DNA from: Saprospiraceae bacterium
GTDB lineage: Bacteria > Bacteroidota > Bacteroidia > Chitinophagales > Saprospiraceae
NCBI GenBank assembly: GCA_029212405.1
Contig: JARGNR010000009.1
Location: 1-64,000, forward strand
Reading direction: 5' to 3'
DNA length: 64,000 bases
Both the position numbers and the translations under genes were made by a program. The notes beneath the pieces were generated by a model, which was given only the letters and a program-made list of their open reading frames with translations, made no database searches and had not been told where the DNA came from. Positions 50,558 to 62,904 of this stretch are shown here, piece after piece; within the stretch, counting starts at the first letter, position 1; each line of letters starts with the position of its first letter.

Positions 50558-50677
50558 TTTACAAATCCATAACACAAGAATAGGCCCAAAAGTACAATCA
50601 AAGGGGTAAATCGTCCTGTTTACAGATATAGGAATACTAGATATTTGTATTATCAATTAAACAGAAATATTTATCCA

Positions 50678-51352
50678 ATGAAAAGTTATTTAATCGCATT
50701 TATACTAGTGTCTTTGAGTCTATTTGGTTGTATCAAAGATGATTTTATTGAGGATTTCGTAGAACCCACCTTACGTATCACTACAGTTCCAGATACCATT
50801 CTAGTCAATTCAGAATACCAATTTGAATTTATGTTTCTGAACAATATAGGTGTAGAAGAAGAGGTAAATGCGGTGTGGTCCAGTTCCAATACTGATATAA
50901 TTGAAATTGATGAAAGTGGTTTGGCCTTGACGAAAACCATAGGTATAGCAGATATAAAAGTTATGTATTCCAATAATGAAATTAACTTGGAAGAAGTTGC
51001 TACAGTTCGAGTGGGAATGTCTACAGTGGAAGCAATAACAGAACGAGATGGAAGGATAAAAACAACCAGTTCATATACGCTAGAAGGTGATTTTAAGTTA
51101 TCAGAAAATCAAGGACAACTGACAATTGAATTCTTTGAAGATTATAGAGCATCCACTGCCCTACCAGGCTTGTATGTTTATCTTTCAAATAATCCAAATG
51201 CTATTGGAAATGCATTAGAAATTGGTGCGGTAGAAACATTTTCAGGTAGCCATGTGTACACCTTAGAGAATATAGGAATTAATGATTATGAATACCTCGT
51301 TTATTTTTGTAAACCTTTTAATGTCAAAGTAGGAGACGGTACCATTAACTAA
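50678..51352 (+). CDS. Lipoprotein with Ig-like and DM13 (electron-transfer) domains
   Basis: The 224-residue lipoprotein (SLSLFGC, lipid Cys18) has a Big2-like Ig domain (about 32-112; WSSSNTDIIEIDESGLALTK). A C-terminal DM13 domain (about 120-224) contains YTLEGDFKLSENQGQLTI, LPGLYVYLSNN, SGSHVYTLENIGINDYEY and the conserved Cys211 in VYFCKPFNVKVG. DM13 domains have been proposed to work in electron transfer. The upstream TTG at 50645 would place 11 residues before the lipoprotein signal, so I start at 50678. It is followed 65 bases later by a predicted outer-membrane barrel, probably in the same operon. Confidence 0.75.
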   Translation: MKSYLIAFILVSLSLFGCIKDDFIEDFVEPTLRITTVPDTILVNSEYQFEFMFLNNIGVEEEVNAVWSSSNTDIIEIDESGLALTKTIGIADIKVMYSNNEINLEEVATVRVGMSTVEAITERDGRIKTTSSYTLEGDFKLSENQGQLTIEFFEDYRASTALPGLYVYLSNNPNAIGNALEIGAVETFSGSHVYTLENIGINDYEYLVYFCKPFNVKVGDGTIN

Positions 51353-52530: not shown

Positions 52531-53040
52531 ATGCTCACTACTCTACTCTACATCTCTTTAATTTCTGGAGGCATTCTCGTTTTCATGGTTTTATTAAGCT
52601 TTCTTGGAGGTCTTGACTTTGACATTGATTTTGGTGAAGGCGACGATGGAGGAGGCGTAATCAAGGGTGTTCTTACATTCTTTTCAGTGGGAGCCTACAT
52701 TTGGAGAGGTTTTCTGATGGCCGATACAAATCCATTGTTATCTCTTGCTGCGGGTTTAATCGCCGGCACCATTGCTGTTATTGTTTTAATTAGTTTTTTG
52801 AGATGGATCATGAGACAACAAGAAAATGTAAATTGGTCGTTAGAAGATGCTTTATTTGAAAAAGGAAAGGTCTACCTAAAAATTCCAGTTTCCGGTTCAG
52901 GCATTGTCCAAGTAACCATTAACGGTGTAAACCGAGAATTTAAGGCAAAATCAAGTGATGAAAAAGAAATACCCACAGGTGCCATTATTCAAGTAGAATC
53001 TATTGAAGATGAGTTCGCTATTGTAACTACAAATTTTTAA
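52531..53040 (+). CDS. NfeD-like membrane protein with OB-fold domain
   Basis: The 169-residue protein has an N-terminal membrane helix (LLYISLISGGILVFMVLLSF), an acidic glycine-rich loop (DFDIDFGEGDDGGG), two more helices (GVLTFFSVGAYIWRGF, SLAAGLIAGTIAVIVLISFL) and a C-terminal OB-fold domain (about 105-169; GKVYLKIPVSGSGIVQVTIN). It lies 38 bases before a flotillin gene. NfeD and flotillin form a well-known pair in bacterial membrane microdomains. Confidence 0.85.
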   Translation: MLTTLLYISLISGGILVFMVLLSFLGGLDFDIDFGEGDDGGGVIKGVLTFFSVGAYIWRGFLMADTNPLLSLAAGLIAGTIAVIVLISFLRWIMRQQENVNWSLEDALFEKGKVYLKIPVSGSGIVQVTINGVNREFKAKSSDEKEIPTGAIIQVESIEDEFAIVTTNF

Positions 53041-53078
53041 ACTATCAATATAATTTAATCACAAACTAAAACCAAACT

Positions 53079-54635
53079 ATGATTGAAAATCCATTAACAA
53101 CAGCCCTTATTACATTCGCTGTCTTTCTTATCGTACTAGGTATTGGGGTATTTTTGGCCCGATACAAACGATGTCCCAGTGATAAAATATTAGTCGTATA
53201 CGGAAGAACTGGAGGCGGTGCATCTGCAAAATGTTATGCAGGTGGCGCCACATTTGTATTGCCATTTTTTCAAGATTATCGTTTTTTAGAATTGACTCCT
53301 TTATCTATTGATGTCAATTTGCAAGACGCCCTTTCTAAACAAAACATTCGGGTATCTGTACCTGCTCAATTTACCGTGGGTATTTCCAACAAACCCCATT
53401 TAATGATTGCCGCTGCAGAACGATTATTGGCACTAGGCAGACCAGACATTTCTTCACTTGCTCATGACATTATTATGGGACAAATGAGGTTGGTAATCGC
53501 GAATATGGATATTGAGGAATTGAATACCGATCGAGATAAATTTGTGGAATCTGTATATCGGAATGTTGGAGACGAATTACATAAAATCGGTTTGGAACTC
53601 ATTAATGTAAATGTAACGGATATTCAGGATGAATCTGGATACATCAAGGCGTTGGGACAAGAAGCTGCGGCAAAAGCCATCAATGATGCGAAAGTGAAAG
53701 TGGCCAATGAAGTAAGAACAGGGTCCATTGGAGAGGCAGAAGCCAAACAAGAACAAAGGGTAAAAGTGGCAGACGCCAATTCACGTGCAGAAATTGGAGA
53801 AGCAAAAGCGACACAAGAACAACGGGTAAAAGTGGCAGAATCCAACTCTCTCGCAGAAATCGGTGAAGCCGAAGCCAATCAATCGCAAAGAATACAAGTG
53901 GCTGATGCCAATTCCAGAGCAGAAGTTGGTGAAGCCATTGCCAATGCAACTGCAATTGATGGTAAGAACCAAAGTGCAATTAAAATTGCAGATTCCAATA
54001 CTCAGAGAGACATCAAAATAGCAGAGATGGAAAGAGAATCTGTCGCTGCAAAAAAGGTAGCTGCTGCAAAAGCATTAGAAGAAGCTTACCGTGCAGAGCA
54101 AATTGCTGAAGAAGCAAGAGGAAAGAGAGATATGGCTCAACGTTCTGCAGATGAAGTTGTTGCAGAACAAATTGAGAAGGAAAAAGCAGTGCTTAGAGCA
54201 CAAGCGGAAGCGGAACGACAAAGAGAAATTGCAAAAGGAGAAGCAGATGCCATTCTTTCCAAACTTTCTGCACAAGCAAAAGGTATGGAAGAATTGTTGA
54301 GCAAGCAAGCAGATGGTTTCAACAAATTAGTGAATGCTGCCAATGGTGATCCACAAAGTGCGATTAATTTTTTAATGATTGATAAGTTGGCTGAGTTGAC
54401 AGAAATCCAGACTTCTGCAATCAAAGAGCTCGACATTGACAAAGTCGTTGTATATGACAATGGAAGTGGAAAAGGAGTATCTAATTTTGTTCAAGGACTA
54501 TACGGAATGATGCCTCAATTGAATGACTTTTTAAGCCAAAGTGGTATGACTTTGCCAGAAGGCTTGGTCAAAAAAAACAATAAAATTGAAACACCTAAAT
54601 CCAGTACTGAAACTGAAAATGATTCTTCAGAATAA
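53079..54635 (+). CDS. Flotillin-like SPFH protein
   Basis: The 518-residue scaffold protein has one N-terminal membrane helix (9-27), an SPFH/PHB domain (about 30-200; YGRTGGGASAKCYAGGATFV, FQDYRFLELTPLSIDV, VNVTDIQDESGYIKALGQEA) and a long coiled-coil flotillin region with many EA pairs. Residues 217-282 are three clean 22-residue repeats of the form IGEAEAxQEQRVKVADANSRAE. The tail is acidic. It should organise membrane domains with its NfeD partner. It ends at a terminator shared with the convergent CDGSH gene. Confidence 0.92.
   Translation: MIENPLTTALITFAVFLIVLGIGVFLARYKRCPSDKILVVYGRTGGGASAKCYAGGATFVLPFFQDYRFLELTPLSIDVNLQDALSKQNIRVSVPAQFTVGISNKPHLMIAAAERLLALGRPDISSLAHDIIMGQMRLVIANMDIEELNTDRDKFVESVYRNVGDELHKIGLELINVNVTDIQDESGYIKALGQEAAAKAINDAKVKVANEVRTGSIGEAEAKQEQRVKVADANSRAEIGEAKATQEQRVKVAESNSLAEIGEAEANQSQRIQVADANSRAEVGEAIANATAIDGKNQSAIKIADSNTQRDIKIAEMERESVAAKKVAAAKALEEAYRAEQIAEEARGKRDMAQRSADEVVAEQIEKEKAVLRAQAEAERQREIAKGEADAILSKLSAQAKGMEELLSKQADGFNKLVNAANGDPQSAINFLMIDKLAELTEIQTSAIKELDIDKVVVYDNGSGKGVSNFVQGLYGMMPQLNDFLSQSGMTLPEGLVKKNNKIETPKSSTETENDSSE
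53727..53924 (+). repeat. Three tandem 66-bp repeats in the flotillin coiled coil
   Basis: Three 22-residue units (217-238, 239-260, 261-282) start IGEA and end (R/L)AE, and a decaying fourth begins VGEAIAN. Twenty-two residues equal two hendecads, the periodicity of a nearly straight coiled coil. Confidence 0.8.
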
Positions 54636-54662: not shown

Positions 54663-54693
54663 AAAAAGGTGCGATTTTAGTCGCACCTTTTTT
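54663..54693. terminator. Bidirectional terminator between flotillin and CDGSH genes
   Basis: AAAAAGGTGCGA (54663-54674) pairs with TCGCACCTTTTT (54681-54692) over a 6-base loop. A/T runs on both sides serve both converging genes. Confidence 0.92.
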
Positions 54694-54728: not shown

Positions 54729-54929
54729 CTATTTCCAATCAATAGACTTATGTGCTCCATCGCAATACGGCTTATTTGAAGAAGCACCACATCTACAATA
54801 GGTAGAACGATTTTCTTTAGTTTCTACAGAACCATCCGCGTGCGTTACTTGACAAGTACCCGTTATCATAAGTGGTCCTCCAGGGATTACTTTTACTTCA
54901 ATGTTTTCGTTGTTGTTTTGATCTTCCAT
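54729..54929 (-). CDS. CDGSH-type iron-sulfur protein
   Basis: This 66-residue protein has one CDGSH domain. The ligands of a [2Fe-2S] cluster are Cys45, Cys47, Cys56 and His60 in YCRCGASSNKPYCDGAH, matching the C-x-C-x2-(S/T)-x3-P-x-C-D-G-(A/S/T)-H signature. An N-terminal strand region (GGPLMITGTCQVTHADGS) is usual in the bacterial single-domain forms. It should be a cytoplasmic redox or cluster-transfer protein. It lies 25 bases after the antiporter gene and is the last gene of that leftward run before a shared terminator; no promoter is seen in the gap. Confidence 0.9.
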   Translation of the reverse strand: MEDQNNNENIEVKVIPGGPLMITGTCQVTHADGSVETKENRSTYCRCGASSNKPYCDGAHKSIDWK

Positions 54930-54954
54930 GTTTATATTTATTTAATAAAAAAAA

Positions 54955-56241
54955 TTATTTCAATTCAGGCACTTTCCATTTGGTCTCTCCTACCTCAGTA
55001 GATTTCACCTTATTAATGGCTTTATTCGTTCGTTGTTTATCAAAAATCAAACTAACGGTCATCACCAGACTGGTTCCGATAATTATAAACAATAAAATTC
55101 CTTGGCTAAAGTCATAAATCACAAGATCTTCTCCAATATCATAAAACAACAATATAGTGATTAGCCCTCTAGGTGCTATATATAATTGGGGAACAATATC
55201 TTTCCCTAAACTGACTCGTAAAAGCAAAAAGCGAATCAAATAGATTACTGCTAGGCATAATAAGGAAAGAAAAAAGACCGACCAACTAGCCAATGTTGAA
55301 AAAACGATGGTCACACCAAATACAACGAAGAAAAATGTTCTTACTACAAAAGCTGTTTCCATAGTAATGGTATGTAATCCATGATATATTTCATCAGCTT
55401 TTTTAGCATCTAACCATTTTTTTAAAGGACCAAAAAAGAATATGTCTTTGTTTGCAATTACTAATCCAAATACCAATATGATCAATAAAGAGGATAAGTG
55501 CTGTAATTTTGCAACAGAATAAATCAAGAGCAAGGTAGAGATCAGTAAAAACAACTTGGTTTGAGAACTAATTTTTTGAAAGATTAGAACCAACAAATAA
55601 CTCGATACGATAGCAATCACCAAAGTCAAAAGTGTGGTTAAAATAAAACTACCAAAGCCTCCATGAGTATCTCCCCCTTCTAAGATCACCATACCTTTTA
55701 AAAAATAGAATAACATAATTCCAAGAATGTCAGAGAATGTACTTTCATAAATATGGAATTCCTTTTTATCCTGCCTTAATTCATTCACACTAGGTATGAT
55801 AATTGCGCTGGATAAGATAGATAAAGGAGTTGCATAAATCCAAGCCACAAGTTTGCCTTGCTCACAAAACTTATCCTGGAAATTAGGAATAAAATGATAG
55901 ATTAATTCTGCTGTTATCCAAGTTGATAACAACAAACCAGCCAGAGCTATACCCAAGGACATCACAATAGGTAGTAACTTACTTCTTTCCAATTTTAATT
56001 CTAGTGCGGCCTCTAAAACAATCATTATTAACCCTACAATCCCTAATATCTCCAAAGCTCCCATGAAATTTGAATCTTCCAATCCGACATAGTCCATTCC
56101 AAACTTGAGCAGTACACCGAGAACAATGAGCATCAAAACAGAAGGTATACTTGTGCGTTTTGAAATTTCTCCAAAGAAAAAAGAAATTATCAAAACAACA
56201 GATGCTTCAATAATCAATGCATATGATGATGAATAATCCAT
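54955..56241 (-). CDS. Cation/proton antiporter (CPA family, NhaP-like)
   Basis: The 428-residue membrane protein has 11-13 predicted helices from end to end and no large soluble domain. The ion site of CPA transporters is recognisable: ATPLSILSSAIIIPS (137-151), Glu166 and Asp171 in ESTFSDILG, Arg301 in VVRTFFFVVFG and Arg358 in APRGLITILL, as in NhaP-type exchangers with one ion-binding Asp. It should exchange Na+ or K+ for protons in the inner membrane. Many homologues carry a cytosolic regulatory TrkA or universal-stress domain; this one does not. Regulation may lie in the genes co-transcribed upstream: MscS-like protein (12-base gap) and ATPase. Confidence 0.85.
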   Translation of the reverse strand: MDYSSSYALIIEASVVLIISFFFGEISKRTSIPSVLMLIVLGVLLKFGMDYVGLEDSNFMGALEILGIVGLIMIVLEAALELKLERSKLLPIVMSLGIALAGLLLSTWITAELIYHFIPNFQDKFCEQGKLVAWIYATPLSILSSAIIIPSVNELRQDKKEFHIYESTFSDILGIMLFYFLKGMVILEGGDTHGGFGSFILTTLLTLVIAIVSSYLLVLIFQKISSQTKLFLLISTLLLIYSVAKLQHLSSLLIILVFGLVIANKDIFFFGPLKKWLDAKKADEIYHGLHTITMETAFVVRTFFFVVFGVTIVFSTLASWSVFFLSLLCLAVIYLIRFLLLRVSLGKDIVPQLYIAPRGLITILLFYDIGEDLVIYDFSQGILLFIIIGTSLVMTVSLIFDKQRTNKAINKVKSTEVGETKWKVPELK

Positions 56242-56253
56242 AAATATTCTTTA

Positions 56254-56937
56254 TTAGTTGTTTTTATTTAACTCAAATCCAGCTTTTTCAATATGCTTCA
56301 TTAAGCCTACTTTAAATTTTTCATGATCAATTCTAGCCGCTACTTTAAATTCATCCCGCTCTTTATCTATTGAAACCTTAGTCACTGCCAAAAATGGATA
56401 ATTGAATAAATTCTTTTTTAAATGATTAAGGGATTGATAATCACTTCTGTCATGCACATCTTTACACATAAAGGAAATTAATACCGTTCCTTTTTCTGAC
56501 TCTCTAATTATTTTATCTCCTTTCCAAGCATTAAATGGAAAATAGATCTTATTCTCTGGAGTGAGTAGATGTAATCCTCCATAATTAACAGCAATTAAGG
56601 TACCCGTATCATTTCCAAGACTAATCTTATCTCCCAACTTTACGTTAGAAAAATACAAGCTCAATAACGCCTTTGAATAAGAGATGATGTTTTTATAAAA
56701 TGCACCAAATACGATTAAAAGTAAAAACAAATGATACAAAGGATGAATCAACGTAAACGATACCACTATGATCACGAATAACAGATATGAAAACATTCTA
56801 AACCCAATCGACTTTTCTTTGGCATCTTTACGGAATAGATGAATCTTGTTCACTATAAAATATAATACACCACATCCAAAGAGGATGATTGCAAATTGAA
56901 ACCATGATAGAAAATCATCTTGTAATAACTCTGCCAT
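56254..56937 (-). CDS. Reduced MscS-like membrane protein
   Basis: The 227-residue protein has three membrane helices (about 12-30, 46-64 and 66-97). Then comes a beta domain with the MscS pattern NVKLGDKISLGNDTGTLIAV (98-117) and GLHLLTPENKIYFPFNAW (121-138), and an alpha/beta C-terminal part up to 227. The pore helix region (HLFLLLIVFGAFYKNIISYS) lacks the Ala/Gly packing pattern of MscS TM3. It is therefore an MscS-domain protein that may not form a normal stretch-gated pore. It sits between ATPase and antiporter genes with 6- and 12-base gaps, so all three are surely made together. Confidence 0.7.
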   Translation of the reverse strand: MAELLQDDFLSWFQFAIILFGCGVLYFIVNKIHLFRKDAKEKSIGFRMFSYLLFVIIVVSFTLIHPLYHLFLLLIVFGAFYKNIISYSKALLSLYFSNVKLGDKISLGNDTGTLIAVNYGGLHLLTPENKIYFPFNAWKGDKIIRESEKGTVLISFMCKDVHDRSDYQSLNHLKKNLFNYPFLAVTKVSIDKERDEFKVAARIDHEKFKVGLMKHIEKAGFELNKNN

Positions 56938-56943
56938 AACTAT

Positions 56944-59196
56944 CTACAGTTTTAATAATATTCTCTCAATCAAATGAATCAAAAAAGGATGAATCGAAAT
57001 GTGCCCTTTTTTGGGTCTAACCAATATTTTTTGACCCACCAAAAAATCTATAGATTTAATCGTCGTTCTAAATTCAAGTTCTGATAATGAATCTGATAAA
57101 AACTTAACTGAAGACATATGGTAGGCGGAAATATATTTAAGGAGTGTTTCATGCCTGGATATGAGTTCTTTAAATTCCTGGGATTTCATATTCTGCTTGT
57201 AGCCAATGCCAAATGATCTACAATACTCCAACATAGCCAATCCCGGATTACCTTTTGATTCTCTATAAATGGATCGTATTTTTGGGTCGATCTCAGCTTC
57301 TTCCCATTTCAATTGTTGATTGACTTTTGCTCTAAGGTAAAGCGCTTCTCTCGTTTGATTGAGGTTCAAATTTTCAACTCTGATTTGCTTAGAAAAAATT
57401 TCATTCAGATCCATAAAAATCTGTACCCTTTCCTTTAAAAATGGAGTAGCGGTAACAACAAAAAATATTCTTTTACGATATTTTGGGATAGCAGTAAATA
57501 ACTTCGAAATATTGTCAAATAGTTCAATATCATCATTGTGCCAATGCTCCAAATCATCAATACACAAGATCACTTTTTTACCACTTGTTCTCTTTAAAAC
57601 ATTTTCAATAAGCGCTTTAATTTCAAAATTGGGAGGATATGATTGATGTTCAATAAAATAAGATTCTCCCGCTTTTAGATGAATCAATTCCTCATTCATT
57701 CCAATATGATTGAGTTTACCGAGTAGGGTCGATTTTCCACTACCCGTTGGACCAGATAATAATATCGCTCCTGTAAAACCTTCTTTCCATAATTTATAGT
57801 CTTCAAAAATCGGATCGATAATTTCAGGTCTCGGGACAGTAAATGACTTGCCTAAATACCCCTTCTTCAGAAAGAGAGCAAGGGAATCATTCTCATCATC
57901 AATCATTAACTTGTTTTGTACATATTGACTGTACTGTGTTCTATCTATTTCTAGGTATCTCGATAAAACCTTACTCAATGAAGACTTAATTTCATTGGTA
58001 TATTTATTGAAATTGTGTATTATTCTCTTCTGGGCATCCCTACTGAGATTTGATATTTGACTTCTTTCATTTTCTGGTAGAAACAATTTTTCTTTGGAAT
58101 AAACATTGGAGACTACTACATGATTTTCAAGATGATCCGTTATGTATTGATTTTGTTTTTCTTCCTCTTTACTCAAGGCATTCAGTACATCACGATGTAA
58201 TCTTGAAAAAACATTATCCAACTCCCTGTTCAAATCTGTTCCCTTGTCAATATCTGCTAAACTGATAGCAGCGATTCTTGCTTGAACTTGTTTTAGGACT
58301 TGCAATACCTTCTCAACTGCATGATCTCTTCGACTTTCAAGTTCAATAACTTTTGGGTAAATGAAAGAGGAAAACCACTTTGCAAATTCAGACCTAACAT
58401 TAATCGATTTATAAACTAATTTGTTTTGATCAATACTTATAGGTAATGACAATATTTCTCTATTGGGGTACGGAATTACCTCTATGGACTCTGTACTTTG
58501 AATCAATTCCAACTTTTGAATATCTTCTCCGATCCGATCCACTATATGACTAATCTTTGTTTCTGAAAAATCAACTGAAACATCTTTGGTTATTTCCATC
58601 ACCTCATTCACAATATCAATCAAATTAGAAATTGCTGACGATTGAAATGAATACTGCAATTGGAAATCTCGGATATAAATATTGATATTCGCTCGAACAT
58701 CTTCAATTTTAGAAATACTACGATAAATCTTTTTTGCCTGTTTTTCCAGTTCAGATAACTGAAGTGTAATTTCAGAAACCGGACTTTTTTGGTATCTCCA
58801 TAGATTCAATTGCTCTTGTGTAGGCTTTCCTTCGTTAAACGAATTTTCAGTTTCTTCCGCAGCATCGCAAATGGTTTGTCTTATCTCATTTAAATATCTC
58901 TCATCTACAGGTCTGCCATCTTTTTGAAATTGCTCGTATTTCGTCACCGCTAAAAGAGAATCTCTCAATAAAATAGTGAAATCTCGAGCTGTTGAAGTCC
59001 ATTCGTATGCTTTGAATTTCAATCTATCCGAATCAGGAAATTTACTTAATTCATTACATTGAGTTAATAATTCCTGAATCGTACCATCAATTTTTTGACT
59101 AAGCATCAATGGATTAAAGTCAGAAATAGGAATATTCTTCCAATACCCTAAATCTATTGAGGTCACATTTGTAGAAGGTTCAGATTGAATATCCAT
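56944..59196 (-). CDS. Large P-loop ATPase with N-terminal helical region and C-terminal winged-helix-like end
   Basis: I do not recognise this 750-residue family by name. Residues 1-450 are mainly helical and rich in charged residues, with coiled-coil-like stretches (for example LSELEKQAKKIYRSISKIED and VEKVLQVLKQVQARI) and no membrane helix. Residues 450-680 are an AAA+/STAND-like NTPase. Walker A is SGPTGSGKST (481-490), Walker B is VILCIDDLEHW (542-552), a sensor-like strand is FFVVTATPF (578-586), and SKGNPGLAMLEYC (647-659) resembles the end of ORC/STAND modules. The last 45 residues (ELEFRTTIKSIDFLVGQKIL) look like a winged helix. It is first in a four-gene operon with the MscS-like protein, antiporter and CDGSH protein, so it may gate or assemble the transporters. 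Confidence 0.7.
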   Translation of the reverse strand: MDIQSEPSTNVTSIDLGYWKNIPISDFNPLMLSQKIDGTIQELLTQCNELSKFPDSDRLKFKAYEWTSTARDFTILLRDSLLAVTKYEQFQKDGRPVDERYLNEIRQTICDAAEETENSFNEGKPTQEQLNLWRYQKSPVSEITLQLSELEKQAKKIYRSISKIEDVRANINIYIRDFQLQYSFQSSAISNLIDIVNEVMEITKDVSVDFSETKISHIVDRIGEDIQKLELIQSTESIEVIPYPNREILSLPISIDQNKLVYKSINVRSEFAKWFSSFIYPKVIELESRRDHAVEKVLQVLKQVQARIAAISLADIDKGTDLNRELDNVFSRLHRDVLNALSKEEEKQNQYITDHLENHVVVSNVYSKEKLFLPENERSQISNLSRDAQKRIIHNFNKYTNEIKSSLSKVLSRYLEIDRTQYSQYVQNKLMIDDENDSLALFLKKGYLGKSFTVPRPEIIDPIFEDYKLWKEGFTGAILLSGPTGSGKSTLLGKLNHIGMNEELIHLKAGESYFIEHQSYPPNFEIKALIENVLKRTSGKKVILCIDDLEHWHNDDIELFDNISKLFTAIPKYRKRIFFVVTATPFLKERVQIFMDLNEIFSKQIRVENLNLNQTREALYLRAKVNQQLKWEEAEIDPKIRSIYRESKGNPGLAMLEYCRSFGIGYKQNMKSQEFKELISRHETLLKYISAYHMSSVKFLSDSLSELEFRTTIKSIDFLVGQKILVRPKKGHISIHPFLIHLIERILLKL

Positions 59197-59323: not shown

Positions 59324-59331
59324 CAAAAGTA
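59324..59331 (-). promoter_or_regulatory. -7 element (TACTTTTG) of the ATPase/antiporter operon
   Basis: Read leftwards, TACTTTTG (59331-59324) would start transcripts near 59319, about 120 bases before the ATPase ATG. It mirrors the element at 59345. Confidence 0.5.
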
Positions 59332-59367: not shown

Positions 59368-59847
59368 ATGATGTATAAAGTTCTTATAAAGAACCAAGAG
59401 ATAGAAGTCAGCCAAAAAGACCTGGACGAGTTAAACATCTCTTTCGACAATAGAAACAATTGCTTTCAGATACTAAAAGATGGAAAATCTCATCGAATCT
59501 ATCCGATCGATAGTTCAAAAAATGGAAAATCACAACGTATGATGGTCGATGACCTAGATATCGAGACTGTGATTCTTGATCATTTAGATCAACAAGTAGA
59601 ATCCATGGGACTTTCTGACATAGATGACCATAAGTCGATGAATATTACAGCACCCATGCCAGGATTGATCCTAGATATTATGTGTGAAGAAGGGGAAGAG
59701 ATAGAAGCAGGAAAATCAATTCTTATTCTCGAAGCTATGAAGATGGAAAATGTAATTAAGGCCGAAGGAAATGGCACCATTGTCAAAATCCATAATTCTG
59801 TTGGTGAGTCTGTTGAAAAAGGGCAACTAATTATCGAAATCGAATAA
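59368..59847 (+). CDS. Biotin carboxyl carrier protein of an acyl-CoA carboxylase
   Basis: The 159-residue protein has a C-terminal biotinyl domain (about 90-159) with the biotin-accepting lysine Lys125 in LEAMKMENVIKAEG and the preceding TAPMPGLILDIMCEEGEEI. The N-terminal 85 residues form a short domain that in propionyl-CoA-type carboxylases links to the carboxyltransferase. It is first in a three-gene operon with biotin carboxylase and carboxyltransferase genes. Two ATG codons in a row start the frame (59368 and 59371); either may be used. Confidence 0.9.
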   Translation: MMYKVLIKNQEIEVSQKDLDELNISFDNRNNCFQILKDGKSHRIYPIDSSKNGKSQRMMVDDLDIETVILDHLDQQVESMGLSDIDDHKSMNITAPMPGLILDIMCEEGEEIEAGKSILILEAMKMENVIKAEGNGTIVKIHNSVGESVEKGQLIIEIE

Positions 59848-59883
59848 TAACCCCTATACCATTTATTCTTTAAGAAATTTCAA

Positions 59884-61359
59884 ATGAAAAAAATACTTGT
59901 CGCCAATAGAGGTGAAATTGCCCTTAGGATTATGAAATCTGCAAAAAAAATGGGCATTAAAACTGTGGCCGTTTACTCAGAAATTGATCGTCACACCCCT
60001 CATGTCCTATTTGCGGATGAGGCAATTGAAATCGGTCCAGCACCTTCTGCACAATCCTATTTAGTCATTGACAAAATAATCGATGCGGCCAAAAAGACAG
60101 GGGCTGAAGGAATTCACCCAGGATATGGTTTTTTGAGCGAAAATTCTGAATTTGCCAAAGCTGTTACTGATGCGGGAATTATCTTCATTGGTCCCAATGT
60201 ACATGCTATTGAAGTAATGGGCAGTAAACTAGCAGCCAAAGAAGCGGTAAAAGCATATGACATACCAATGGTTCCAGGAATTGATGAAGCCATTGAAGAT
60301 GTGGAAGAAGCAAAAAAAATTGCAATAGAAATAGGATTTCCTATTTTGATTAAAGCTTCTGCTGGAGGAGGTGGAAAAGGTATGCGTATCGTAGAACATA
60401 TCGATGAATTATCTGAGCAAATGGAACGAGCCATTAGTGAAGCAGAATCTGCATTTGGCGACGGATCTGTTTTTATCGAAAAATACGTCACTTCACCTAG
60501 ACATATTGAACTGCAGGTTTTAGCGGATGCTCATGGGAATGTTGTCCATCTTTTTGAAAGAGAATGCAGTATCCAAAGACGGCATCAGAAAGTAGTCGAA
60601 GAAGCACCATCCAGTGTATTGACTCCACAGCTGCGGGAGGAAATGGGAGCAGCCGCAGTAAGAGTTGCGCAAGCATGCAATTATGAAGGAGCAGGAACAG
60701 TAGAATTTCTATTAGACGATCAATTGAATTTTTACTTTTTAGAGATGAATACCCGTCTTCAAGTAGAACATCCTGTTACAGAACTAATAAGTGGAGTAGA
60801 TTTAGTCGAGCAACAGATTAGAATAGCCAGAGGAGAAAAATTGAGTTTCACACAATCTGATCTTAATATAGAAGGCCATGCGATGGAATTGAGAGTCTAT
60901 GCAGAAGATCCAATGAACAACTTTCTTCCAAGTATAGGAACATTACACACGTATCGTCGTCCTGAGGGAGATAATATAAGAGTAGATGATGGATATGAAG
61001 AAGGTATGACCATACCCATTTATTATGATCCCATGATTGCAAAATTAATCACCTATGGTTCCACAAGAGAAGAATCCATAGACATTATGAAACGAGCAAT
61101 CGCAGAATATAAAATAGAAGGAATAGAAACAACACTTGATTTTGGGGCATTTGTTTTTCGCCATGAGGACTTCATATCTGGAAAGTTTGATACTCACTTT
61201 GTGAAGAAAAACTTTTCTGCAGAATCCGTAGAAGAAAGTCAACACAGTCAGCGAAAGGTTGCTGCAATTTTTGCCGTGAAGCAATACATAAAATCAAAAA
61301 GCAAATTAAAATCCATAGAACACAATTCTAGTATTTGGACCAAAAGTAGAAATCAATAA
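59884..61359 (+). CDS. accC: Biotin carboxylase subunit of an acyl-CoA carboxylase
   Basis: The 491-residue ATP-grasp enzyme carboxylates biotin using bicarbonate and ATP. Marks are ILVANRGEIALRIMKSAKKM (4-23), EGIHPGYGFLSENSEFA, the ATP-binding loop KASAGGGGKGMR, FERECSIQRRHQKVVEEAPS, FLEMNTRLQVEHPVTELISG and ELRVYAEDP. It is 40 residues longer at the C-terminus than E. coli AccC, as in propionyl- or methylcrotonyl-CoA carboxylase alpha subunits whose biotin domain is separate. Gap to the carboxyltransferase gene is 3 bases. Confidence 0.94.
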   Translation: MKKILVANRGEIALRIMKSAKKMGIKTVAVYSEIDRHTPHVLFADEAIEIGPAPSAQSYLVIDKIIDAAKKTGAEGIHPGYGFLSENSEFAKAVTDAGIIFIGPNVHAIEVMGSKLAAKEAVKAYDIPMVPGIDEAIEDVEEAKKIAIEIGFPILIKASAGGGGKGMRIVEHIDELSEQMERAISEAESAFGDGSVFIEKYVTSPRHIELQVLADAHGNVVHLFERECSIQRRHQKVVEEAPSSVLTPQLREEMGAAAVRVAQACNYEGAGTVEFLLDDQLNFYFLEMNTRLQVEHPVTELISGVDLVEQQIRIARGEKLSFTQSDLNIEGHAMELRVYAEDPMNNFLPSIGTLHTYRRPEGDNIRVDDGYEEGMTIPIYYDPMIAKLITYGSTREESIDIMKRAIAEYKIEGIETTLDFGAFVFRHEDFISGKFDTHFVKKNFSAESVEESQHSQRKVAAIFAVKQYIKSKSKLKSIEHNSSIWTKSRNQ

Positions 61360-61362
61360 TCC

Positions 61363-62904
61363 ATGAAAGAAAAGCAAGATATACTGAAGAAAAAGATTGA
61401 AGCGGCTTACTTAGGTGGTGGACAGACTCGAATCGATAAGCAGCACGAAAAAGGAAAGTTGACAGCCAGAGAACGAGTACAACTCTTAATGGATGAAGGC
61501 TCATTTGAAGAAATTGGCATATTGGTTACCCATAGAACCAAAGATTTTGGGATGGAAAATCAAATATTTAATGGAGATGGGGTCGTGACGGGTTATGGAA
61601 CTGTCAATGGTCGATTGGTTTATGTTTTTGCTCAAGATTTCACCGTTTTTGGAGGATCATTATCTGAGACCCACGCTGAAAAAATATGTAAAATCATGGA
61701 TATGGCCATGAAAACGGGTGCACCGTTGATTGGACTCAACGATAGTGGAGGAGCCAGAATTCAAGAAGGAGTTAGATCATTGGGGGGCTATGCTGATATT
61801 TTCTATCGAAACGTAATGGCTTCTGGAGTGATTCCTCAAATTTCTGCAATTATGGGACCATGTGCTGGAGGTGCTGTTTATTCACCCGCCATTACCGATT
61901 TCACCATAATGGTCGAGAAGACAAGCTACATGTTTGTGACGGGGCCTAATGTTGTCAAAACGGTAACCAACGAAGAAGTTACTTCTGAAGAACTAGGTGG
62001 AGCAAGTACGCACTCCACTAAATCAGGTGTAACTCATCTCACTGCTGGGAACGACTTGGATTGCATACGGAAAATAAAGCAACTGCTAAGTTATCTTCCT
62101 CAAAACTGTGAAGAAAAACCGATGAAGTATGAGGTGGAATTAGATACTGAATACAGAGAAGAGTTGGAGTCCATTGTTCCAGACAGTGCAAATAAGCCTT
62201 ACGATATGCATGAGGTTATTCAAGGAATAATAGATAGAGATTCATTTTTTGAAATTCATAAAAATTATGCGGATAATATCTTGGTTGGATTTGCAAGATT
62301 GGGAGGACGAAGTATTGGCATCGTAGCGAATCAACCGATGAGTCTTGCTGGATGTTTGGATGTCGACAGTTCAAAAAAAGCAGCAAGATTTACTCGATTC
62401 TGTGATTGTTTTAATATTCCACTGCTTGTTCTCGTAGATGTTCCTGGATTTTTGCCAGGTACTGATCAAGAATGGAATGCCATCATAACCAATGGAGCAA
62501 AGCTTTTATATGCCTTGAGTGAAGCCACGGTGCCTAGGATTTCATTGATCACCAGAAAAGCTTATGGAGGTGCCTATGATGTTATGAATAGCAAACATAT
62601 CGGAGCTGATATGAATTATGCATGGCCTTCTGCTGAAATTGCAGTTATGGGAGCAAAAGGGGCGAGTGAAATTATTTTCAGAAAAGAAATTAAGTCTTCA
62701 GACGATCCTCAGGCTACTTTGAAGGAGAAAGAGCAAGAGTATGCGAATTTATTTGCCAACCCCTACTCTGCTGCGCAAAGAGGCTTTATTGATGAAGTAA
62801 TTCTTCCAAAAAATACAAGACGAAAATTAATTAAGGCATTTTCCATGTTGGAAAATAAAGCGGTCAAAATTCCTAAAAAGAAACATGGGAATATCCCACT
62901 CTAG
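61363..62904 (+). CDS. Acyl-CoA carboxylase, carboxyltransferase (beta) subunit
   Basis: The 513-residue subunit moves CO2 from biotin to an acyl-CoA. It is of the PccB type, with both crotonase-fold halves in one chain: the N-half has [54 protein letters not shown] and [17 protein letters not shown]. The C-half has [41 protein letters not shown] and [20 protein letters not shown]. The residue that sets chain length follows DVPGFLPG-type motifs, but I cannot decide propionyl-CoA from acetyl-CoA with confidence; propionyl-CoA carboxylase is the best guess. Confidence 0.93.

Follow-up and report, generated by a model that had tools for sequence, protein, structure and literature searches.

Genes at the locus

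The window analysed here is a 64,000-nucleotide stretch of contig JARGNR010000009.1 from a Saprospiraceae bacterium of the phylum Bacteroidota. On its minus strand, positions 54729-59196 hold an operon for a STAND-like ATPase, an MscS-like membrane protein, a CPA-type cation/proton antiporter and a small CDGSH iron-sulfur protein. The ATPase, MscS-like and antiporter genes are a conserved module. The initial annotation, made from the sequence of the window, had described four leftward genes with gaps of 6, 12 and 25 bases, and the open reading frame (ORF) coordinates confirm this description, with the gaps given in transcription order. The features are listed below.

56944..59196, minus strand: STAND-like AAA+ ATPase, 750 amino acids (aa), from the ORF, an AlphaFold2 model and a 51-sequence family alignment
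57727..57753, minus strand: Walker A motif GPTGSGKST (residues 482-490), Lys488 in 47/51 family members (Arg in 4/51) and Ser/Thr489 in 51/51
57541..57570, minus strand: Walker B motif ILCIDDLEHW (residues 543-552), Asp547 in 51/51 and Trp552 in 48/51
56254..56937, minus strand: MscS-like membrane protein, 227 aa, AlphaFold2 pLDDT 88.8, Foldseek match to E. coli MscS at 1.3e-9
54955..56241, minus strand: CPA-type cation/proton antiporter, 428 aa, PF00999
54967..54990, minus strand: antiporter tail GETKWKVP (consensus VGxx(K/R)WKAP), a candidate docking peptide, from the alignment; it tracks the partner genes
54729..54929, minus strand: CDGSH iron-sulfur protein, 66 aa, PF09360
54663-54692, both strands: intrinsic terminator-like hairpin, 12-13 pair stem and T run

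The antiporter matches PF00999 at 4.2e-17 (62.5 bits against a cutoff of 26.2). No further domain and no appended regulatory domain was detected, in agreement with the initial annotation. The protein reaches 44 of 355 bits against the PRK05326 K+/H+ model, a search with its family profile found no solved chain at 1e-3, and its identity to 13 linked relatives is 56-75%. The genome of the window also encodes a more distant, second antiporter (L169, G000:C124:29000-32500); it lacks the tail motif, and no ATPase or MscS gene lies within the 3.5 kb read around it.

The CDGSH protein was identified correctly at the outset (PF09360, 2.8e-16), but its membership in the system did not hold. Among 94 flanking loci, a CDGSH gene stands beside the operon only within the same genus (three genomes and the window; L017 and L060 are one record). 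It was therefore rejected as a fourth conserved member and is treated as a co-linear, genus-level addition.

Conservation of the gene order

Linkage was followed in 13 first relatives, the best 80 of at least 584 named loci, 296 Saprospiraceae genomes and 395 genomes from the phylum. A genome-contig scan queried with the ATPase alone returned no relative, so the named loci were collected by antiporter similarity and are biased toward close antiporters. In all 13 first relatives with an ATPase of the window type (13/13), the ATPase gene is followed by a gene at the place of MscS and by an antiporter gene, although these ATPases are only 17-38% identical to that of the window; two of the MscS genes (L019 and L022) fall below the phmmer cutoff and were assigned by place and alignment. 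A fourteenth relative, L029, has a longer ATPase and an MscS-like gene and no antiporter.

All three genes are present in 63/80 named loci, the median gaps being 3 and 10 bases, with some genes broken or cut; L087 also has all three, its antiporter being interrupted. By record title, the triplet loci belong to Saprospiraceae, Algoriphagus, Gillisia, Polaribacter, Cellulophaga and Eudoraea, among others. The remaining 16/80 comprise 11 antiporters alone (Zobellia, Maribacter, Aureibaculum and relatives), two partnerless antiporters near a contig edge, two pairs of MscS and antiporter genes, and L071 with ATPase and antiporter.

For the 296 family genomes, the 108 strongest of 133 ATPase rows were used (the 25 weaker ones, mostly of fused or longer types, were left out), together with 102 of 127 antiporter rows, namely the 100 strongest and the fragments G091 and G219 that adjoin ATPases. 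An antiporter lies at most 2 kb downstream on the same strand in 98/108 ATPase rows, at a median distance of 792 bases, or in 96/108 when the two fragment rows are taken out. Four of the 98 linked rows have no intervening MscS gene (G119, G134, G140 and G212). Among the ten exceptions, seven ATPases end at contig ends (G120, G209, G183, G065, G176, G164 and G100), and G133 is split over two contigs, as judged by coordinates. In G188 the ATPase gene is located elsewhere, while the MscS and antiporter genes are still together, so that all three genes are retained; the tenth exception is G230. In the 395 phylum genomes, an ATPase of the window type adjoins an antiporter in 5/5 matches, and the close antiporters G451 and G496 are solitary. 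No description of such an ATPase/MscS/transporter combination was found in the open-access literature, subscription papers being outside reach.

Chance or historical clustering of genes with no joint function would agree with the partnerless antiporters of Zobellia, Maribacter and Aureibaculum. However, the linkage counts already contradict it, the triplet persists in Saprospiraceae, Algoriphagus and several Flavobacteriaceae genera even though identity has fallen to about 20%, and the fusion and tail evidence given below argues in the same direction. This explanation is scarcely credible.

The ATPase and the MscS-like protein

The ATPase consists of an N-terminal half of long helices (about residues 1-430), a P-loop ATPase domain and a C-terminal winged-helix-like end, and its AlphaFold2 model has a mean pLDDT of 87.7. 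Residues about 435-750 resemble NSF D2, ORC/Cdc6 and RFC (VIA Z 13-14), and the Foldseek rows include ORC2, Cdc6 and CED-4. An AAA+/STAND fold with a C-terminal winged helix is thus found in the model by both methods; these matches concern the C-terminal core, and residues 1-430 are barely covered by the fold searches. Matches of the ATPase to haemagglutinin and gp41 were taken as long-helix artefacts. Comparison with the named AAA and STAND families gave only sub-threshold matches, the best being nSTAND_NTPase5 with 22.6 bits against a cutoff of 34, so that the initial reading of a 750-residue AAA+/STAND-like ATPase of no named family stands.

Two further STAND motifs were examined. The hhGR box on the N-terminal side of the P-loop is present, with Arg456 in 51/51 and Phe452 in 49/51 family members, while its Gly occurs in 28/51 only and is replaced by Pro in the window protein. 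The GxP box is absent: this segment reads GN(I/V)G, and Pro651 is found in 1/51, the window protein itself. For this reason the ATPase is called STAND-like and is not filed as a STAND member. It has in common with STAND/ORC-type ATPases (CED-4, Cdc6/ORC, nSTAND) the AAA+/STAND core, the winged-helix-like end, the F/R box and Walker A/B. It differs from them in its tie to ion transport, in scores below the named-family cutoffs and in the lack of conservation of the GxP Pro.

The AlphaFold2 model of the MscS-like protein shows three membrane helices, a beta domain and a C-terminal alpha/beta domain. The window protein itself has no significant Pfam match; PF00924 is matched by 20/51 members of its family at E up to 0.1 (best 2.2e-7), its cutoff is passed in the relative L160, and the family profile matches MscS and YnaI chains, from 1e-6. 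By VIA, the model gives Z 9.6 over 204 residues with a root-mean-square deviation of 16, tied with unrelated small domains including copper-chaperone-like ones. VIA alone is therefore not decisive, and the MscS fold is decided by the family profile and Foldseek. The initial annotation had spoken of a reduced MscS-domain protein; the fold is upheld, but the word reduced is not, since the three helices and the beta and alpha/beta domains are all retained in the model. Compared with the MscS superfamily (MscS, YnaI, MscK; PF00924), the protein has the same fold and the same layout of three helices, beta domain and alpha/beta domain, but differs in its weak sequence signature and its near-constant ATPase neighbour.

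Transporter replacement in distant variants

Nineteen more distant loci were picked for taxonomic spread from the weaker ATPase matches of the family and phylum searches. A gene matching the MscS-like profile lies directly downstream of the ATPase gene in 19/19 of them (8 giants and 11 shorter variants), and ATPase and MscS are thus the usual pair. At L150 this downstream gene matches PF00924 at 2.9e-19, above the cutoff.

Eight of these loci encode fused proteins of 1636-1703 aa with 11-12 predicted membrane stretches. The N-terminal transporter part has conserved columns common to all 8 giants. The two giants scanned match AA_permease PF00324 at 1.5e-48 and 5.3e-48, and one of them, L153, also matches SLC12 PF03522 at 7.4e-7; the N-terminal 700 aa of L160, the sole giant compared, match NKCC1 at 1.4e-82. 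In their C-termini, the giants match the ATPase family of the window (532 columns, E 6e-43). An SLC12-homologous transmembrane domain is thereby found in the giant variants and not in the window protein. The giants are homologous in this N-terminal part, as seen for L160, to the cation-chloride cotransporters (SLC12: NKCC1, KCC), and differ from them by some 900 added residues, with the STAND-like ATPase at the end and an MscS-like gene following downstream, an arrangement absent from the window. A prokaryotic member of the cation-chloride cotransporters was reportedly described by Warmuth in 2009.

The eleven other variants have ATPases of about 1000 aa without a transporter part, or shorter as called. 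For nine of the 1000-aa ATPases, L029 included, the alignment with the ATPase family of the window spans 546 columns (E 1.7e-33). One gene row of this type, L157:5779-12961, contains a 1011-aa ATPase, an MscS-like gene, CorA, a PF00924 MscS gene and a further weakly MscS-like gene.

The proposed partnership with two membrane genes is therefore kept for MscS in the distant variants, while the antiporter has given way there to a fused NKCC-like cotransporter or has no substitute. The joint function of ATPase, channel-like protein and transporter put forward in the initial annotation is well supported by the 98/108 antiporter linkage and the 19/19 MscS linkage; the same counts show that ATPase homologues do not occur mostly without the membrane genes.

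Among 59 triplets, the median pairwise identity is 23% for the ATPase, 21% for the MscS-like protein and 64% for the antiporter. ATPase and MscS distances are correlated with r 0.92, or 0.83 when antiporter distances are removed, and the partial correlations of antiporter distances with the other two proteins are 0.17 and 0.28. This tighter mutual co-evolution, and the distant pairs of ATPase and MscS, speak for an arrangement in which these two alone are the real unit, as an ATPase-gated channel or a vestibule cap, and the antiporter is co-expressed without contact and restores ions or pH once the channel has opened. The covalent fusion of ATPase and cotransporter at eight loci does not agree with it, nor do the specific tail of partnered antiporters and the four genomes with ATPase and antiporter but no MscS gene. 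We regard a contact-free antiporter as rather unlikely.

A C-terminal tail on partnered antiporters

Partnered antiporters carry the tail motif just past their last membrane helix. Trp422 and Pro425 are invariant in 14/14 linked antiporters, and a simple tail pattern is found in 62/63 triplet antiporters and in 2/2 MscS-antiporter pairs. The lone triplet failure, L099, is broken by a frameshift, and its second piece carries the tail. The tail is missing in 12/13 antiporters without a partner in view. The thirteenth, tail-bearing one (L096) begins only 67 bases inside a contig edge; its genome, G164, has the ATPase and MscS genes at a different contig end. By inspection, the tail is also missing in 12 paralogous or more distant antiporters and in two solitary ones of the phylum search. 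A family ATPase was found in 0/7 searched genomes with tail-less solitary antiporters, and G188 has retained the tail despite its relocated ATPase.

When the tail is left out of the tree, the 14 solitary antiporters come together as a single clade inside a group that holds 19 partnered ones (SH-aLRT 99 for both). Because the solitary clade is nested among partnered antiporters, partner and tail were most simply lost together.

Solitary antiporters such as L108, L109, L121 and L130 have another conserved tail, which is acidic (like DEIDEE...RNEAED) and may serve another binding partner. No new partner is apparent at L108, the sole locus scanned with Pfam, where the neighbours are NusA, RimP, IF-2 and a TMEM260-like protein.

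Genomic surroundings

The four operon proteins gave no significant match to PADLOC (best E 0.075, the P-loop stretch only). No relative of the window ATPase was found on plasmids, phages or viral contigs by tblastn and short exact patterns, which reach fairly close relatives. A flank survey covered 139 proteins from 28 of the 63 triplet loci. At 1e-10 these proteins matched 28 PADLOC models, none with more than 2 proteins among the matches listed; a type II methyltransferase gave the strongest match (2.4e-119), followed by a type II restriction enzyme (2.5e-81) and PDC-S22 (6e-51). The commonest Pfam families in the flanks are ordinary ones, and the same flanks recur within genera, for example Gillisia and Algoriphagus. 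Neighbours that recur beyond one genus are thioredoxin-like genes at 10/63 loci, mostly in Algoriphagus, and genes AraC-like by eye at 5/63.

Defence by ion flux had been raised in the initial annotation. In such an anti-phage or abortive-infection system, the STAND-like ATPase would detect infection and open an ion flux. The STAND-like fold, the rapid divergence of the ATPase and the single strong PADLOC matches in the flanks could be read in this way. The operon proteins themselves do not reach significance in PADLOC, mobile relatives of the ATPase are lacking within the reach stated, no defence model recurs in the flanks beyond the two proteins given above, and the flanks are ordinary and recur within genera. 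These results do not bear out the defence idea, which is very improbable.

Another explanation concerns pH or redox homeostasis. Here the MscS-like protein would be a non-conducting scaffold, and the ATPase would read ATP or cytosolic ions and gate the antiporter in the manner of KefF/KefG, with CDGSH as a redox input. The antiporter is the most conserved part of the system, the CDGSH gene belongs to the operon in this genus, and thioredoxin-like genes occur at the loci mentioned above, all of which would suit this explanation. On the other side, CDGSH is absent beyond the genus, and the swap to an NKCC-like cotransporter fits it poorly. We consider it unlikely.

Transcription signals and neighbouring genes

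The stem and T run of the hairpin at 54663-54692 can be read on both strands, so that it would serve the convergent flotillin-like gene as well as the operon. Terminator-like sites in the whole scan number 3, against a mean of 2.9 in shuffles, and the hairpin is therefore persuasive by eye and not by count. The single terminator of the initial annotation thus stands as a hairpin and has no statistical excess over shuffles. No complete Bacteroidetes-type promoter (TTTG-N17-23-TAnnTTTG) was found on the operon strand from 59600 to 54700; one isolated -7-like element lies at 59331, 5' of the ATPase gene.

Convergent with the operon, the plus strand at 52531-54635 encodes a 169-aa small membrane protein, NfeD-like by eye and without a significant Pfam match, and then an SPFH/Band 7 flotillin-like protein (518 aa). 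L016 has a similar-sized gene pair (175 and 537 aa) 3' of the operon in opposite orientation. Divergent from the ATPase gene, the plus-strand genes at 59368-62904 read as biotin carboxyl carrier, biotin carboxylase and carboxyltransferase, and genes of similar size to this cluster flank the operon in L016, L017 and L018, from three other genomes of the same genus. The plus strand at 50645-51352 encodes a DM13 'electron transfer' domain protein (PF10517) with an N-terminus that is lipoprotein-like by eye.

Discussion

Taken together, the linkage, the fusion and the tail point to a joint action of the ATPase and the MscS-like protein on a secondary ion transporter, or in concert with one. We think it somewhat probable that the three conserved genes are one ion-transport control unit, in which the ATPase and the MscS-type protein form a core that sets the activity of a secondary transporter. 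The cytosolic STAND-like ATPase and the MscS-type membrane protein would sense and switch jointly, and this core would set the activity of the CPA antiporter, which it would hold through the C-terminal VGxx(K/R)WKAP tail. In the sister systems, the ATPase would act through the NKCC/KCC-like cotransporter to which it is fused, or an MscS channel would be the only output. The MscS-type part would most likely respond to membrane tension, turgor or cell volume as its input, and the nucleotide cycle of the ATPase would render the response switch-like. The labels ATP-gated and membrane-state-gated, both used in the initial annotation, might apply to such a unit.

Animal cells classically regain volume with a pair of transporters, an exchanger and an NKCC-like cotransporter. 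The MscS fold, which points to tension, and the swap between an exchanger and an NKCC-like transporter, which recalls this pair, favour turgor or volume control. A more specific proposal is a prokaryotic cell-volume machine, in which an MscS-type tension sensor with an ATPase switch on its cytosolic side drives a sodium/proton-type exchanger through the tail and an NKCC-type cotransporter through fusion. We offer this version tentatively and hold it to be doubtful as a whole; within it, the ATPase would possibly assemble with a sevenfold symmetry matching that of the MscS-type protein.

Several observations weigh against a three-gene control unit of this kind. The loss of partner and tail amounts to 2 independent transitions only (sign test p 0.5), and with so few transitions the correlation between tail and partner cannot reach significance. 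Much of the MscS signature is gone from the MscS-like proteins, which might be non-conducting, and the MscS fold is the sole ground for taking tension as the signal. The 1000-aa variants have no common transporter gene alongside. The Walker A lysine is missing in 5/9 aligned 1000-aa ATPases (L151, L157, L166, L168 and L029, which have R, A, V, N or T), so that ATP hydrolysis may not be general; these residues suggest that the lysine-less proteins bind nucleotide without hydrolysis, or do neither. In G230, the antiporter begins at a contig end and no MscS gene is recognised beside the ATPase, and in G176 the antiporter has the tail, yet its upstream neighbour is not MscS-like.

The systems without an MscS gene belong to the same group of observations. 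In G119, G134, G140 (the genome of L071, by coordinates) and G212, an ATPase of 846-876 aa directly adjoins the antiporter, so that the MscS membrane part is dispensable at times. The tails of these four antiporters retain the Trp, but read KWKPKS, KWSAKS or KWNPKS. Elsewhere in the L071 genome no close member of the MscS-like family was found (best E 1.4e-7). The extra C-terminal 95 residues of these ATPases show a weak hhalign match to the cytosolic domain at the C-terminus of the MscS-like family, with a probability of 51%, a score of 29.8 and E 1.5e-4 in one comparison, while 40 shuffled or reversed controls gave at most 1.4% and 16.8. This weak match suggests that the ATPase acquired an MscS-like cytosolic domain when the membrane part was lost. 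Such a takeover is what would be expected if the ATPase and the MscS-like protein touch there.

The proposed control unit is similar to the Kef system (KefC with KefF/KefG) in that a CPA-type antiporter depends on an adjacently encoded cytosolic partner. The Kef partner is flavodoxin-like, and the Kef antiporter has its own nucleotide-binding domain. In the system of the window, by comparison, an MscS-type protein and a STAND-like ATPase would take the place of that partner, and the antiporter has a short tail at its end.

Bacterial turgor is generally ascribed to separate channels and transporters. If the three genes do act as one control unit, this would introduce a new principle of regulation, in which one dedicated ATPase core can work with different ion transporters, and STAND-like ATPases would gain a role in ion transport. 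NKCC-like transporters, a family of human drug targets, would be placed under a bacterial controller, and the tail motif offers a direct handle for testing the model.

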